Shown: piece after piece, positions 2,306 through 63,145 of the stretch
Numbering within the stretch: position 1 is the first letter of the stretch
How the letters are laid out: each line of letters opens with the position of its first letter
Origin: Ianthella basta
Lineage: Eukaryota > Porifera > Demospongiae > Verongiida > Ianthellidae
DNA: 64,000 nucleotides
Assembly (NCBI GenBank): GCA_964019415.1
Contig: OZ025878.1
Span: 6,968,035-7,032,034, forward strand
Direction: 5' to 3'
Position numbers and translations under genes: made by a program
The notes under the pieces: model-generated
The model's input: the letters and a program-made list of their open reading frames with translations, nothing else
Databases searched by the model: none
Told to the model about the DNA's origin: nothing

Positions 2306-3012
2306 GTGCAGTATCCGCTTATGACTGTGACTGTATAGTTGATACCACATGCCAGTAAGCGGAGAGCAGTTAGCTGTAGGCCCCATCCATAATACATGTC
2401 TTGGTCTGACCACAAGAATGGCTAGCTCGCAAGACTGTAATTCTAACACTAGTATTTATGACGTCATGGTGGACCATGCAGGCGTACGTGGATTACGTAC
2501 TGCCGGCACACACCGCTGCCAAAATAGTGAGAGGCGACAGAAGCCTTGCAGTTGAATTTGATCTCTTCCTCAGTTGCCCTAAGTTTCCGTAGGCAATTTA
2601 TCTGCACGAACTGCACACCGACTGTTAACTGTAAGCTTATAGCCGTCATCCTACAACGCACTTATAGGGTTAGGGTCCTGATTGGCAACGAAGTTGAGCA
2701 ATGGCATTCACACACCACGGCCACATTTCGGGCGAAAATATAGGAACATGGCGTCGAAAGGTGAGCTTCCTATTATTGAGCCTTGATTTAACTTGGGACT
2801 GCCTAGCACAGATACTAGATGGGACGCTAATGTGTGTCGTGTGCAGCCGCGTGAGGCACTCGTAGCTAGCTATGTACTTGTCACTTTTAGACAATGTATC
2901 AACAACTACTTGTAGCTATAGTAAAAGTAAACATATCCCAACTTCCTGCCTTATGTTATCTAGTAGCATTGTATCAAGATATATCACAGCGGCCTCCTTC
3001 CAGAACCTCCGG

Positions 3013-3608
3013 TGTCACGGTTTATTCCATCCCCCCAGTTTTGTATCCCCCCGGGTAAAATAAACTAGGATACTTCATCCCCCGACTTCGAATTTCTGAG
3101 TATTTCTTAACTCTTTTTGGTGTGTTTCACCTCGAGGGGTTGTTCTGACAGCCATCAACCCTGCTTTGACAAGCATTAGCTAAGATTCCGACCGTTTCAT
3201 GCTCCTCACATGCTCAGGCTATAGCGTCGATGTACCTGCACATCGATGTCCACCAGTTTGCAAAACTGCACGCCGTACTGCTACTCAAACACTTCTGCTC
3301 GTTGTAGTAGTGCCCTCTTGACATTCTTCGAGAACCCAGAGGACTACACAAGCATCCCAGCCATGGTAGAAGGACAAAAACCTCACCGCGGTCGTCAGTT
3401 AACAAGATCGATGTGGTCTTCTGCAAGGACTGCGAAGGAAGTGCAGGATTCGCAGATATCATCACCTAACAGTCTCTTCTGGTAGTGGTAAGTCTCATCC
3501 TGCAGCAGGGTGCATTTTACTAGCTTCTATCAGCATTTCTGTGTCGTTTAACCAACCTTCGGTTACCCGGGGGGATACTTTATACGGGGGGTAAAATAAA
3601 CTGTGACA
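3013..3608. mobile_element. Non-autonomous DNA transposon with CCGG target duplication
   Basis: This 596-bp block is absent from the paralogous CARD exon at 59710. It starts TGTCACGGTTTATT and ends AATAAACTGTGACA (one mismatch when paired); similarity extends inward to about 50 bp with indels through CCCCCC-rich blocks. It is flanked by CCGG at 3009-3012 and 3609-3612, while the empty site has a single CCGG. No coding capacity is evident inside. It interrupts the CARD exon of gene A1. Confidence 0.85.
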
Positions 3609-4261
3609 CCGGGTCCAGCCTCCCAATGAGCAAGTAGAACAAAGATGCCCTGATCTCTTTGGAACGAGACCTTAAGATCAATGTCAACCCTGACGAGCTG
3701 ATTGATCTTTTGGAGGTGCCAGCTGGTGGGTTCATGACTGAGGGTGAGAGGATGTCAGTGTGTGAACAGCCAAACCGAAGAGAGAAGGTGGGACGCATCA
3801 TCACCCTCTTGCGGGGAAAGGGGGACTGGGATTTAGACATCTTCATGAATCTGTTGAGGAAGAGCGGAAATGAGGTGTGGGCGGGGCAGCTAGAGGAGAA
3901 GGTTTGGCTTATCAAGACTGATCCACAAGGAGGTGGGCGGAGTACTTCTTTGAATAGATGGAATGTTTGTACCATGTTTGCACACATTGTGTGGGAGTTG
4001 TCAGTGGGAGGTGTTAGGTATGCGGGCACTTCAGCAATATTGAATAACGTTCTGACTCATTGTTTGCCACAACCATTTCAGTATATTGTGTGTGCGTGTG
4101 CATATGTGTGTGTGTGTGTGTGCAACTCTGTGGTCATGAGCAGAGTAACTTAGGTAATTGCCAATTGAGAAATACACTGTATATTGTATTTAACTCAGCA
4201 ACATGGTGATTCTTCCTACAGAGTATGGAGATCCCCCAATTGGTGAGGTCAAACAAGTAAT

Positions 4262-59435: not shown

Positions 59436-62400
59436 ATGGCGTCGAAAGGTGAGCTTCCTATTATTGAGCCTTGATTTAACTTGGGACTGGCTAGCACAGA
59501 GACTCGCTAATGTGTGTCGTGTGCAGCCGCGCGAGGCACTGCGCACAGAGAACATCTGCATGACCAAGGCGCGTAGCTAGCTATGTACTTGTCACTTTTA
59601 GACAATGTATCGTCAGCTACATGTAGCTATAGTAAAAGTATAAACATATCCAAATTTCCTACCTTATATTATCTAGTAGCATTGTATCAAGATATATCAC
59701 AGCGCCCTCCTTCCAGAACCTCCGGGTCCAGCCTCCCAATGAGCAAGTGGAACAAAGATGCCCTGATCTCTTTGGAACGAGACCTAAAGATCAATGTCAA
59801 CCCTGACGAGCTGATTGATCTTTTGGAGGTGCCAGCTGGTGGGTTCATGACTGAGGGTGAGAGGATGTCAGTGTGTGAACAGCCGAACCGAAGAGAGAAG
59901 GTGGGACGCATCATCACCCTCTTGCGGGGTAAGGGGGACCGGGATTTTGACATCTTCATGAAACTGTTGAGGAAGAGTGGCAATGAGGTGTGGGCAGGGC
60001 AGCTAGAGGAGAAGGTTTGGCTTATCAAGACTGATCCACAAGGAGGTGGGCGGAACACTTCTTTGAATAAATGGAATGTTTGTACCATGTTTGCACACAC
60101 TGTGTGGGAGTTGTCAGTGGGAGATGTTAGGTATGCAGGCACTTCAGCAATAAAATAACGTTCTGACTCATTGTTTGCCACAACCATTTCAGTATATTGT
60201 GTGTGTGTGTGTGTGTGCATATATGTGTGTGTGTATGTGCATGTGCATGTGGGTGTGCATGCGTGCAACTCTGTGGTCATGAGCAGAGTAACTTAGGTAA
60301 TTGCCAATTGGGAAATACACTGTATATTGTAACTCAGCAACATGGTGATTCTCCCTACAGAGTATGGAGATCCGCCAATTGGTGAAGTCAAACAAGTAAT
60401 GAATACCACTGTAGTGCAGGCTTCTGCAGCTTCTGAAGTGTCAAGTGGCCATCTCACAGGTTAGTGAATAACAAAATGACAATTCTGGAATAATAGGCTA
60501 TACACTGGGGATTGGGTGTGTGCATGCGTGTGTGTGTGTGTGTGTGTGTGTGTGTGTGTGTGTGTGTGTGTGTGTGTGTGTGTGTGTGTGTGTGTGTGTG
60601 TGTGTGTGTGTGTGTGTGTGTGTGTGTGTGTGTGTGCGCGCGCGCGTATGTGTGTGTGTGTGTGTGTGTGTGCGCGCGCGCATATGTGTGTGTGTGTGTG
60701 TGTGCATGTGTGTAGGTGTGTGTGTGTGTGTAGTGTGTGTGTATGTGTGCATGTGTATATGTGTATGTGTGTGCATGTGTGCGCATACGTGTGCTTCTGT
60801 GGGTACCAATCTCACAAGAATTTATTTACAGTGGCAGGCACCCCTTTGTGCATTCATCTGTTGAACAGGATAGCACCAAAGCATGAAGGTGATTGCTTTG
60901 TCCTCATCTCCTCTTTCCAGCCAAGTCAAGAAAGAAAATGTTAGATGAAGAATGTGATTATGTCTGTAAAGGTACAGTTGCCATTTGAGCATGATATTGT
61001 TTAAGAAATTGTATTATACTTGTAAATTATCAATCTGAAATTCTCATTGAAATCCTCCGTATACCCCTCCCTTCTTCCTTTTCACAAGTTATATTGCTTG
61101 GAGAGTCTGGTGTGGGTAAGTCCAATCTCCTTTCATGCTACACTCGAAACATGTTCAATTTGAAAGCAAGACCAACTGTTGGAGTGGACTTTGACTGCAA
61201 AATCCTTGAAATAGAATCCAAAGCAATCAAGGCTTACATATGGGACACAGGTTTGTAGCTACTTGGCTTAGTTCCATAACCACTTCCTCCTGCCTGTTCA
61301 GCGTTTTCATATAAACCTCTTCCTGCAGTCTTCTGTCTCCTCTGCTCTTTTGTCATCTTCCCCATGTGCCCCTTCCCTTTCCAAAGTAGTCTGTGATAGT
61401 GTATCGTAATTTTACACTCCCTTTGTTCATTGTTGATGCAAGTGTGGATGCATGTGTACATGTATTCCAGTACATGCAATGAGTGTTCTGGACAAGTGTA
61501 TATATACATCCTTACCATTGCTATGTTGTACAATTGACTTCACTGTCATTCAAAATGTCTGGCATCTCCGAATGTATTCTTCAAATTTGGAGTATTGCTG
61601 TATGCATATGTGAAGCCAAAGATTGGTTGTTTTCTGTTACAATGGTTGTGTGATGCATCTTTGCACTATCTGTTTCTGCAGCTGGTCAAGAGAGATTTAG
61701 ATCTGTCACCACCTCGTACGTTGGGCATCTGTGTCTATATTGGGGGGGGGCATACTCATGCTTTGTAATGTAGTATGTACAGACTGTCAGTTTTTCAGTT
61801 TTCTTTAAACTGTGCCTCTCTGTGCACCTTGTGGTGTCAGCCTCTTACCTCTCTTAACCCTCCTTTAATCTTGTTGATCTATACACATTTTGTCTCCCCA
61901 CCTTCAACCTTCCTCCCCATATAAACATGCAGGTACTATAGAGAAATTCATGGTGCTGCACTTATATATGATATCACGAATCTTAACTCCTATAAGAAAC
62001 TGGTAAGTGGTTGGCGGAGCTGAGAGACCGCTCACACTCAAGCATTGTCACCATGTTGGTAGGGAACAAGTGTGACCTGAGACAGAAACAAGCTGTGGTC
62101 ACAAGAGAAGCAATAGCTTATGCCGAGAAGAACTCCATGTTGTTCTGTGAAACATCTGCCAAGGATGGTACAGGTGTTGAGGCCGCATTTCACAACTTTC
62201 TGACAAGTCAGTGGCACACATGCTTTCACTGTATATGTATCACTTATACATGTGGTAGCAAGGAGGACAATATGGTTTGGAAAGGGACTGGAAATAATAC
62301 AATTATATGCAGCAACTTAAAGGTGAAGTCGAGCTGTATTCTAACCCGCATCCTCCTTCTTGCTACTGTAATTGTAAGGATCTGTAAGAAGTTGGCTGTG

Positions 62401-63145
62401 ATGTTATTCACTTTTTGTAGCAATACGAGAGGCTTCTAAACTGGAGCCTACTGCTTCGGCACGAAGGAAGCTTGCACCCCTTTCCAGTCCCTCAATCCAC
62501 AATAATCGTTCACCCACTGTAGCTTTATGCGCCACTCAACCTTCCCTTTCCAGACTCTCTCAATCCCACATATATGTACCCATTGCTATCATACTGAAGA
62601 ACTCCGTTGGCAGCCTTAAATTTTCCGCAAACACATTTCGGTCAGTAAGCTCAGCCAACATTTGACCTCAGAATAGGAGCATGTTGTGCAGCTAGTGCCG
62701 TCGAGAGGATGCCTGAAGTCACCATGCAAAGACACTTGTAGCCAGCTAGTTAGCTAACGCTTTGCAATTTCTTCTAGCTAGGCAAACATTCACATGAAGA
62801 ATGGCTCATGCTAGCTATATCAAACACATAATGATTGTGAGCTATATGAAGACCAGTGTATCTCCAATTTGGCCCAGACTCCTGCAAATGGCAATTCTCA
62901 GCTCACTCTGCATAAAGTGTTTTTGACTAATGTACATACTAATTATGTACATGCATAAACATGATAATATACAAAAACTTGTCTACCTTTCCTCCTTTTT
63001 CCTCTCATCAGAAATCTACCAAACTGGAAAACTTCAGCCTCCAAACTTCCAGCGAAAACCGGGCAGCATGGTTGTGGTCAAGACTTCTCCAACATTGACA
63101 AGGAAGTCAGGGTGGAAAGAACACTGTCGCTGCAAAAAGACATAA
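59436..63145 (+). CDS. CARD-Rab fusion gene A2 (one frameshift)
   Basis: Exons: 59436-59448 (MASK); 59677-60045 CARD; 60361-60459 linker; 60921-60971 ([15 protein letters not shown]); 61089-61250 with P-loop GESGVGKS; 61682-61715 AGQERFRSV; 61933-62206; 63012-63145 ending HCRCKKT. The CARD is complete and opens with V-ALYQDIS before MSKWNKDAL, parallel to E-ALLEES in gene B. GTPase motifs VGVDF, WDTAGQERF, YYREIHG, NKCD and ETSAK are all present. The long exon is 274 nt, one short of the family length: near 62001-62008 CTGGATGAG of A1 reads CTGGTAAG, shifting frame between switch II and NKCD and creating a GTAAGT donor-like site. Corrected, the product would be 378 aa. The CRCKKT tail resembles a Rab CxC signal but has three residues after it. 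Confidence 0.72.
60527..60770. repeat. Compound (TG)n/(CG)n microsatellite
   Basis: Over 100 nt of TG followed by two TGCGCGCGCG blocks and CATG/TATG variants, in the intron after linker exon 3 of A2. Alternating purine-pyrimidine of this kind can adopt Z-DNA. Confidence 0.95.

Follow-up and report, generated by a model that had tools for sequence, protein, structure and literature searches.

GTPases of membrane traffic and death-fold adaptors ordinarily come together as distinct proteins. Rab11 marks recycling endosomes, CARDs assemble through contact with other CARDs, and the Roc-COR GTPases (DAPK1, LRRK2) join a Ras-like GTPase to death-fold or kinase domains. Here we describe a 64,000-nucleotide stretch of the genome of the sponge Ianthella basta (contig OZ025878.1, here C11, positions 6968035-7032034; hereafter the window), in which CARD exons stand upstream of the exons of a Rab GTPase. 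The CARD and Rab exons very probably encode single fused proteins, as judged from gene C in the window and from four further open loci (R2, R3, Dp and Dpp) of the same array outside it.

Several described systems resemble these loci in part. The large Rabs Rab44, Rab45/RASEF and Rab46/CRACR2A likewise place an N-terminal signalling region and a C-terminal Rab in one polypeptide, but theirs is an EF-hand and coiled-coil region, whereas the sponge loci have a CARD and a Rab11-type Rab; the available text of the review on these proteins mentions neither CARD nor death domain (PMC8303950). Neither an EF-hand nor a NACHT domain is among the Pfam matches of the gene C, R3 and Dp products. In mammals, active Rho GTPases switch on NOD1 at membranes, and Rac1 that lacks its prenyl group fails to do so (PMC10585062). 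In NOD1/NOD2-Rho signalling a prenylated membrane GTPase also drives CARD signalling, but with two proteins and a Rho, in contrast to one gene and a Rab here (PMC10585062). The CARD-NACHT receptors (NLRC) have the CARD exon family in common with our loci, in which a Rab GTPase replaces NACHT and the repeats, and Roc is a separate GTPase family with COR, unlike the Rab11-type domain found here. Rab11 itself is matched both in the best structural hit and in an exon layout shared with the plain Rab11 of this genome, but the loci differ from it by the CARD in front, the loss of the exon 2 ATG in six of the 11 CARD-Rab loci and divergent tails; the missing ATG marks a fusion derivative, not plain Rab11. 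No described CARD-Rab family was found in the open-licence literature, most subscription papers lying outside this scope, in agreement with an earlier reading of the window from its sequence alone (the original prediction), which had proposed that no such family was known.

Gene C comprises six exons that join in a single frame of 359 amino acids, with GT-AG at all five introns and phases 1, 1, 1, 2 and 1. Its features, in window coordinates, are:

17133..17553, + strand, exon 1: N-terminal stretch and CARD, with the CARD core (MSKWN..) from 17247 and a phase-1 donor; 5′ end provisional
18034..18087, + strand, exon 2: Rab11 N-terminus, without in-frame ATG
18498..18659, + strand, exon 3: P-loop GDSGVGKS, switch I and interswitch
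19459..19492, + strand, exon 4: AGQERF of switch II
19747..20021, + strand, exon 5: NKCD and SAL motifs
20445..20578, + strand, exon 6: tail to CNC, then stop

The original prediction had named gene C as its strongest case and a profile search of the 359-residue product as one check. Among the window loci gene C alone is intact throughout, and Pfam finds Ras at E 1.5e-58 and CARD at E 2e-4 on the whole product, the latter at 21.7 bits, just below the curated 23.9. The Rab is specifically of Rab11 type, which goes beyond the earlier reading. Its nearest solved structure is human Rab11A (E 3e-74, compared with 7e-51 for the best YPT1/Rab1-type chain), and Rab11A/B fill the top 23 places among the best 60 of 902 matched PDB sequences, in a ranking of matches and not a tree. 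The end of exon 2, YDYLCK, aligns with the Rab11 N-terminus YDYLFK. There is no in-frame ATG in exon 2 or upstream in its open frame to the first stop, and none in the open frame ahead of the P-loop exon (open reading frame (ORF) 18248-18664). The Rab half must therefore be completed by an exon farther upstream, and the phase of the CARD exon is suited to this. Because gene C retains the G1, G3, G4 and G5 motifs and the CNC end, GTP switching and prenylation are likely. With these G motifs and two cysteines near the C-terminus, the proposed GTP-switched, membrane-tethered death-fold adaptor is a reasonable description of the predicted product.

A search of the genome (209 Mb, 96 contigs) places gene C in a Rab11 array of about 310 kb that extends far beyond the window and has a plain Rab11 gene at its start. 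Among the Ras matches listed (161 in all), at least 27 of exon 5 type were counted by eye at C11:6.902-7.208 Mb, all on the + strand. The array holds 13 related CARD exons (R2, R3, R3b, A1, B, C, D, E, A2, B2, Dp, C2 and Dpp) within about 130 kb, each on the same strand as the Rab exons, and given this number, spacing and orientation chance is not a plausible source. Rab exons trail 11 of the 13, the exceptions being R3b and E. CARD donors are in phase 1 in 12 of 13 cases; the exception is C2, whose lesion is a mutation of the donor from GGTAAG to GTTAAG. All 14 placed copies of exon 2 begin and end in phase 1, with borders chosen by alignment and splice signal, and in each of them the segment ahead of the old start has no stop and is in frame. 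Exons 1 to 5 were placed with a stricter splice alignment, a low intron cost having overfitted tiny exons; last exons were chosen by a pattern that included the cysteine ending, and outside C and C2 they are candidates.

Five of the 11 CARD-Rab loci (R2, R3, C, Dp and Dpp) are open over all six exons. These five copies carry the G1, G3, G4 and G5 motifs with the catalytic Gln (as DPAGQ in R2), B2 is broken at G5, and two cysteines lie within the last six residues of the chosen last exon at every locus except D (10/11). B2 has a stop in exon 5 and a second, open copy of that exon (C11:7037963 and 7039122), possibly as alternative exons. Compared in steps of 250 bases, C and C2 agree at 91-100%, with differences of 2-9% upstream of the CARD and 98.8-100% agreement over the Rab part, a pattern such as gene conversion or patchy duplication would leave. 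The codon ahead of the MSKWN-type start is Pro in all 13 array CARD copies. An all-versus-all comparison of the 3 kb upstream gave no common first exon, and a shared 5′ exon ahead of the CARD exons was rejected. Repeats at about -1.5 to -3.0 kb recur between many loci, and where checked (C, R3b) they are exon 5 of the preceding array Rab.

The plain Rab11 gene suggests how the start codon was lost. It lies at C11:6897424-6903306, begins MTGKEDEYDYLFK..., ends in CTC and has introns as in the CARD-Rab loci. Its ATG sits in the exon homologous to exon 2, preceded by a phase-1 acceptor-like sequence whose frame is open, where an intron in the 5′ untranslated region is predicted. Exon 2 is without an in-frame ATG at C, C2, D, Dp, Dpp and B2. 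Counted by eye from the exon end without gaps, Met is residue 13 in plain Rab11, 11 in A1, A2 and R3 and 10 in B, and lies farther out, at 17, in R2; Ile stands at 10 in C and at 11 in B2, and the D group has no Met. We read this series as a CARD exon captured upstream of a Rab11 copy, after which the unneeded start would have been lost.

Pairwise ratios of non-synonymous to synonymous substitution (dN/dS; Nei-Gojobori, own script) point mostly to purifying selection on both halves. They are 0.11-0.44 for CARD pairs with dS above 0 and below 0.9, and 0.24-0.88 for Rab pairs other than D/D2, computed over the codons of exons 3 and 5 at ten loci, three of them (R0, R1 and D2) without their own CARD. 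Between D (27-29 kb) and D2 (32-34 kb) the Rab halves show 10 non-synonymous changes and a single synonymous one, several of them close to the P-loop, switch I and the SAK motif. Among the Rab halves of R3, C, Dp and Dpp, dS is 0.43-1.26, the Dp/Dpp pair apart, and amino-acid distances among the groups R2, R3, A, B, C and D are 0.14-0.43 for the CARD and 0.33-0.52 for the Rab. Over the 11 CARD-Rab loci CARD and Rab distances correlate (r 0.68), matched by 1 of 20000 permutations.

The CARD assignment rests on profiles at several levels. For the window exon ORFs, Pfam CARD gives E 6.5e-5 (A1), 0.034 (B), 5.6e-5 (C), 5.5e-7 (D), 4.4e-5 (E) and 6.3e-5 (A2); the curated score of 23.9 bits is reached by two of the six (D, and E barely), and in the genome-wide search four array CARDs pass the cut-off. 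A profile of 66 members of the CARD family finds Apaf-1 CARD structures first (E 1.1e-5). The family is very large: the gene C CARD has at least 150 matches in the genome (150 of 340 candidates scored), all aligned from residue 1 or 2, on C3, C4, C5, C8, C17 and other contigs. Among the 150 CARD and 102 NACHT matches listed, 22 CARDs lie within 6 kb upstream of a NACHT on the same strand, so the CARD module appears to be shared with NLR-type genes. One CARD on C6 is followed by what looks by eye like a second death-fold exon. In the sponge Dysidea avara the reported CARD-domain genes number 39 and the CARD-NACHT-LRR genes 20, the latter class being absent in seven of the 11 studied (PMC12909245).

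Beyond this genome, the CARD half had a single match (P0002) among 5.8 billion proteins (lengths 197-628), and a search with the CARD alignment gave 196 matches, the best 120 of which are nearly all unnamed ORFs, mostly from ENA. None of the 120 matches listed for the R3 product (7248 in all) carries PF00619, with eukaryote collections including Amphimedon Rab11B covered; scoring in that search covered the 7989 candidates with the most words in common, and a distant CARD-Rab could have escaped it. No homologues were found in the genome-contig and viral-contig collections. Five array CARD ORFs are identical in other public records, possibly from the same specimen. Diverged copies of array CARD exons (64-97% identity) occur on the public contigs P0004, P0009, P0011, P0016, P0017 and P0022 and may represent either other haplotypes or other species.

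Within the window there are six CARD exons, all on the + strand. At A1, B, C, D and A2 the Rab exons follow before the next CARD, on the same strand and with matching phases, as the original prediction had stated for all five. The Rab part has one plan throughout: a short exon 2 is followed by the P-loop exon, then by a switch II exon of 34 nucleotides and a large exon that holds the NKxD and SAx motifs, and a candidate last exon closes the series. Apart from gene C, the features are:

3626..3932, + strand, A1 CARD exon from MSK; TAG at codon 4 (3635-3637)
4894..4944, + strand, A1 exon 2, in-frame ATG present
5057..5218, + strand, A1 exon 3, P-loop
5671..5704, + strand, A1 exon 4
5920..6194, + strand, A1 exon 5; split-codon base placed as in gene C
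7317..7450, + strand, A1 candidate exon 6, ending CRCKKT; end from peptide length
10406..10712, + strand, B CARD exon from MSK
13251..13301, + strand, B exon 2, in-frame ATG present
14112..14273, + strand, B exon 3, P-loop
14595..14628, + strand, B exon 4, AGHEKY, with His replacing the catalytic Gln
14813..15086, + strand, B exon 5, frameshift near 14973
16082..16221, + strand, B candidate exon 6, ending CPCK; end from peptide length
23243..23528, + strand, D CARD exon from MSK, best Pfam CARD score of the window
26967..26999, + strand, D exon 2, without in-frame ATG
27123..27284, + strand, D exon 3, P-loop
27500..27533, + strand, D exon 4
28237..28511, + strand, D exon 5; split-codon base placed as in gene C
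29184..29275, + strand, D candidate exon 6, without cysteine tail; end from peptide length
32284..33830, + strand, D2, exons 2-5, near-copy of D without its own CARD
46296..47845, + strand, F, decayed Rab copy (frameshift, stop, truncated)
50437..50743, + strand, E CARD exon from MSK, no Rab exons until the next CARD
53541..55780, + strand, Roc-like GTPase exon, phase-1 acceptor, no ATG before the P-loop; Pfam Roc only at E 0.0069
59739..60045, + strand, A2 CARD exon from MSK, intact
60921..60971, + strand, A2 exon 2, in-frame ATG present
61089..61250, + strand, A2 exon 3, P-loop
61682..61715, + strand, A2 exon 4
61933..62206, + strand, A2 exon 5, frameshift near 61994; split-codon base placed as in gene C
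63012..63145, + strand, A2 candidate exon 6, ending CRCKKT; end from peptide length

Read as working fusion genes, the predicted count of at least five does not stand, since a lesion is present at A1, B and A2, three of the five loci in the window; at D the frames are open, but the likely last exon is without cysteines. The CxC lipid signal that had been proposed is present at C (CNC) and in the candidate last exons of A1 and A2 (CRCKKT) and B (CPCK) but not at D. Of D2 and F, taken earlier for GTPase parts alone, D2 consists of exons 2-5 with no CARD of its own and F is a decayed copy. E, described as a CARD alone, has no Rab exons before the next CARD but does have a candidate partner, in that it may be the first exon of the Roc-like gene 2.8 kb downstream.

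The Roc-like GTPase exon at 53541-55780 has a near-identical counterpart at 39003-41242; each has a phase-1 acceptor, and neither has a start codon ahead of its P-loop. A death domain exon (56492-56821, Pfam E 6.4e-7) trails the downstream copy, and no CARD lies between the upstream copy and D2. Sampled 300-base stretches of about 37.7-44.9 kb and 52.2-58.4 kb are 99-100% identical, which could come from either a very recent duplication or uncollapsed haplotypes. At 1108-1989 a 293-residue open frame resembles, by eye, the end of a retroelement protein and is a candidate for one.

Also beyond the original prediction, a kinase exon seems to take the position of the CARD in neighbouring array members. 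On the array flanks full-length protein kinase exons stand ahead of Rab11-like exons (C11:6904449-6905462 and 7082966-7140738), as they do on C45 and L041; these are candidate kinase-Rab11 fusions, joined in phase 1 like the CARD-Rab loci. By eye, all seven kinase ORFs of the flanks end in a phase-1 G|GTA; an eighth kinase exon, of the C45 model, ends in phase 1, and a ninth near C11:7.199 Mb does not. In the K7X6 model the kinase, an exon 2 (acceptor 'tatccag', phase 1) and the Rab exons share one frame, and the product matches Pkinase at E 6.6e-34 and Ras at E 7e-59. Phase-1 kinase exons in the position of the CARD support the idea that exon 2 accepts differing front modules. Of nine kinase-Rab models, two (K7X6 and K6X5) pass cleanly from the kinase to exon 3, the C45 model follows the kinase-Rab plan but for a single frameshift called where exon 2 ends, and the remaining six have extra exons, frameshifts or no exon 3. 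Exon 2 of K7X6 has an in-frame ATG and no cysteine tail was found for this model, both of which count against a kinase-Rab11 fusion; exon 2 of R1 has no ATG. A broader proposal would make the locus a modular factory, in which membrane-addressed Rab11 acceptors with interchangeable phase-1 front modules, CARD in the centre and kinase on the flanks, form GTP-controlled signalling platforms on recycling membranes and perhaps baits for microbes that attack Rab11; we consider this doubtful. A remnant of a kinase exon also lies between A1 and B, at window positions 8779-8874.

For the CARD-Rab loci we propose that a Rab11 gene was duplicated in tandem and that a CARD exon from the large family, with its phase-1 donor, would then have landed upstream of one copy. 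The acceptor before the old Rab11 start exon would already have been in phase 1 and in frame, so that splicing could yield a single mRNA for a CARD-linker-Rab11 polypeptide. The start codon of exon 2 would now be dispensable, and duplication of the fused unit would have given the 11 CARD-Rab loci, five of them apparently open. The product would be a Rab11-type switch on recycling-endosome membranes, held there by prenylated C-terminal cysteines. In its GTP cycle, GTP loading would gather the CARD at the membrane, and CARD-CARD contacts would recruit or nucleate NLRs, kinases or caspases, thereby coupling the state of membrane traffic to immune or death signalling. Such a membrane-anchored, GTP-switched CARD scaffold is put forward tentatively, with slightly less than even confidence; fusion and mechanism taken together we hold to be moderately likely. 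A CARD-Rab11 scaffold would probably have its role in immunity.

Several observations weigh against fused and functional CARD-Rab proteins. Six of the 11 CARD-Rab loci have a lesion or an absent tail, introns of 8-11 kb (up to 10.8 kb) make R2, Dp and Dpp weaker models, and the Pfam CARD scores lie close to the cut-off. An open stretch of at least 24 codons precedes the MSK start in every array CARD copy, leaving the start at MSKWN and the first exon provisional. The pattern for last exons was biased towards tails, those outside C and C2 being candidates, and several tails (CNCN, CPCK and CRCKKT) are not known as standard prenylation motifs. The B and B2 CARDs differ by three non-synonymous and no synonymous changes, and the correlation of CARD with Rab distances is equally expected from mere neighbourhood. 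Exon 2 has an in-frame ATG in five of the 11 loci (R2, R3, A1, B and A2), where Rab-only products are possible, and R1 and D2 have neither an ATG nor their own CARD, so that a missing ATG alone is no proof of a CARD partner. Short CARD-only and Rab11-like genes that alternate, each with its own promoter and with no CARD-Rab splicing, would account for part of this: the ATG is kept in the five loci, in A1, A2, B and R3 within three codons of its ancestral position from the exon end, the CARDs R3b and E meet the next CARD before any Rab, and the Rabs D2 and R1 are without a CARD. Nevertheless, interleaved separate genes seem to us quite improbable, as they leave unexplained the six loci lacking the ATG, the gene C frames without one before exon 2 and the P-loop exon, the agreement in phase between the donor ending the CARD frame and exon 2 in 12 of 13 cases and the open, in-frame pre-start part of exon 2 in 14 of 14.

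The remaining alternatives concern what the loci do, or whether they are real. The Rab11 half could be an integrated bait that decoys Rab-modifying microbial proteins while the CARD half reports, with duplication and decay reflecting an arms race; the many decayed and recombined copies, the excess of non-synonymous changes between D and D2 and the sharing of the CARD family with CARD-NACHT gene candidates are as this would predict, and manipulation of GTPases is sensed via NOD1 (PMC10585062). The sequence fits a scaffold and a microbial bait alike, but every other Rab pair has dN/dS below 1 and the G motifs are mostly kept, as in a working switch, and we think the bait unlikely. Recurrent exon capture in an unstable array could also have left a mostly non-functional by-product with little or no fusion protein, which would suit the six damaged or tailless loci, the decay of F and the recent turnover seen in near-identical segments; this we judge improbable, since five loci stay open over six exons despite their silent divergence and keep the G motifs and candidate cysteine tails. 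Lastly, uncollapsed haplotypes could have been assembled as repeated units, in line with the 99-100% stretches and with the likeness of C and C2, but divergence is strong among the groups R2, R3, A, B, C and D, the five CARD ORFs recur identically in other public records (possibly of the same specimen), and such an artefact could raise the copy number, not make the fusion; it is very improbable.

A fused CARD-Rab11 would hold in one protein the functions of a CARD and of a membrane GTPase, and a gene joining both would show that evolution can hard-wire a membrane-traffic GTPase to a death-fold adaptor. It would also be a construct, ready-made by nature, with which to ask if CARD signalling is controlled by the state of a Rab. 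A single locus displays the apparent steps of the fusion, from a plain Rab11 with its start, through copies with a nearby internal Met, to copies without one. Should the kinase-Rab11 genes also hold, the locus would exemplify a single GTPase on which modules have been swapped repeatedly.

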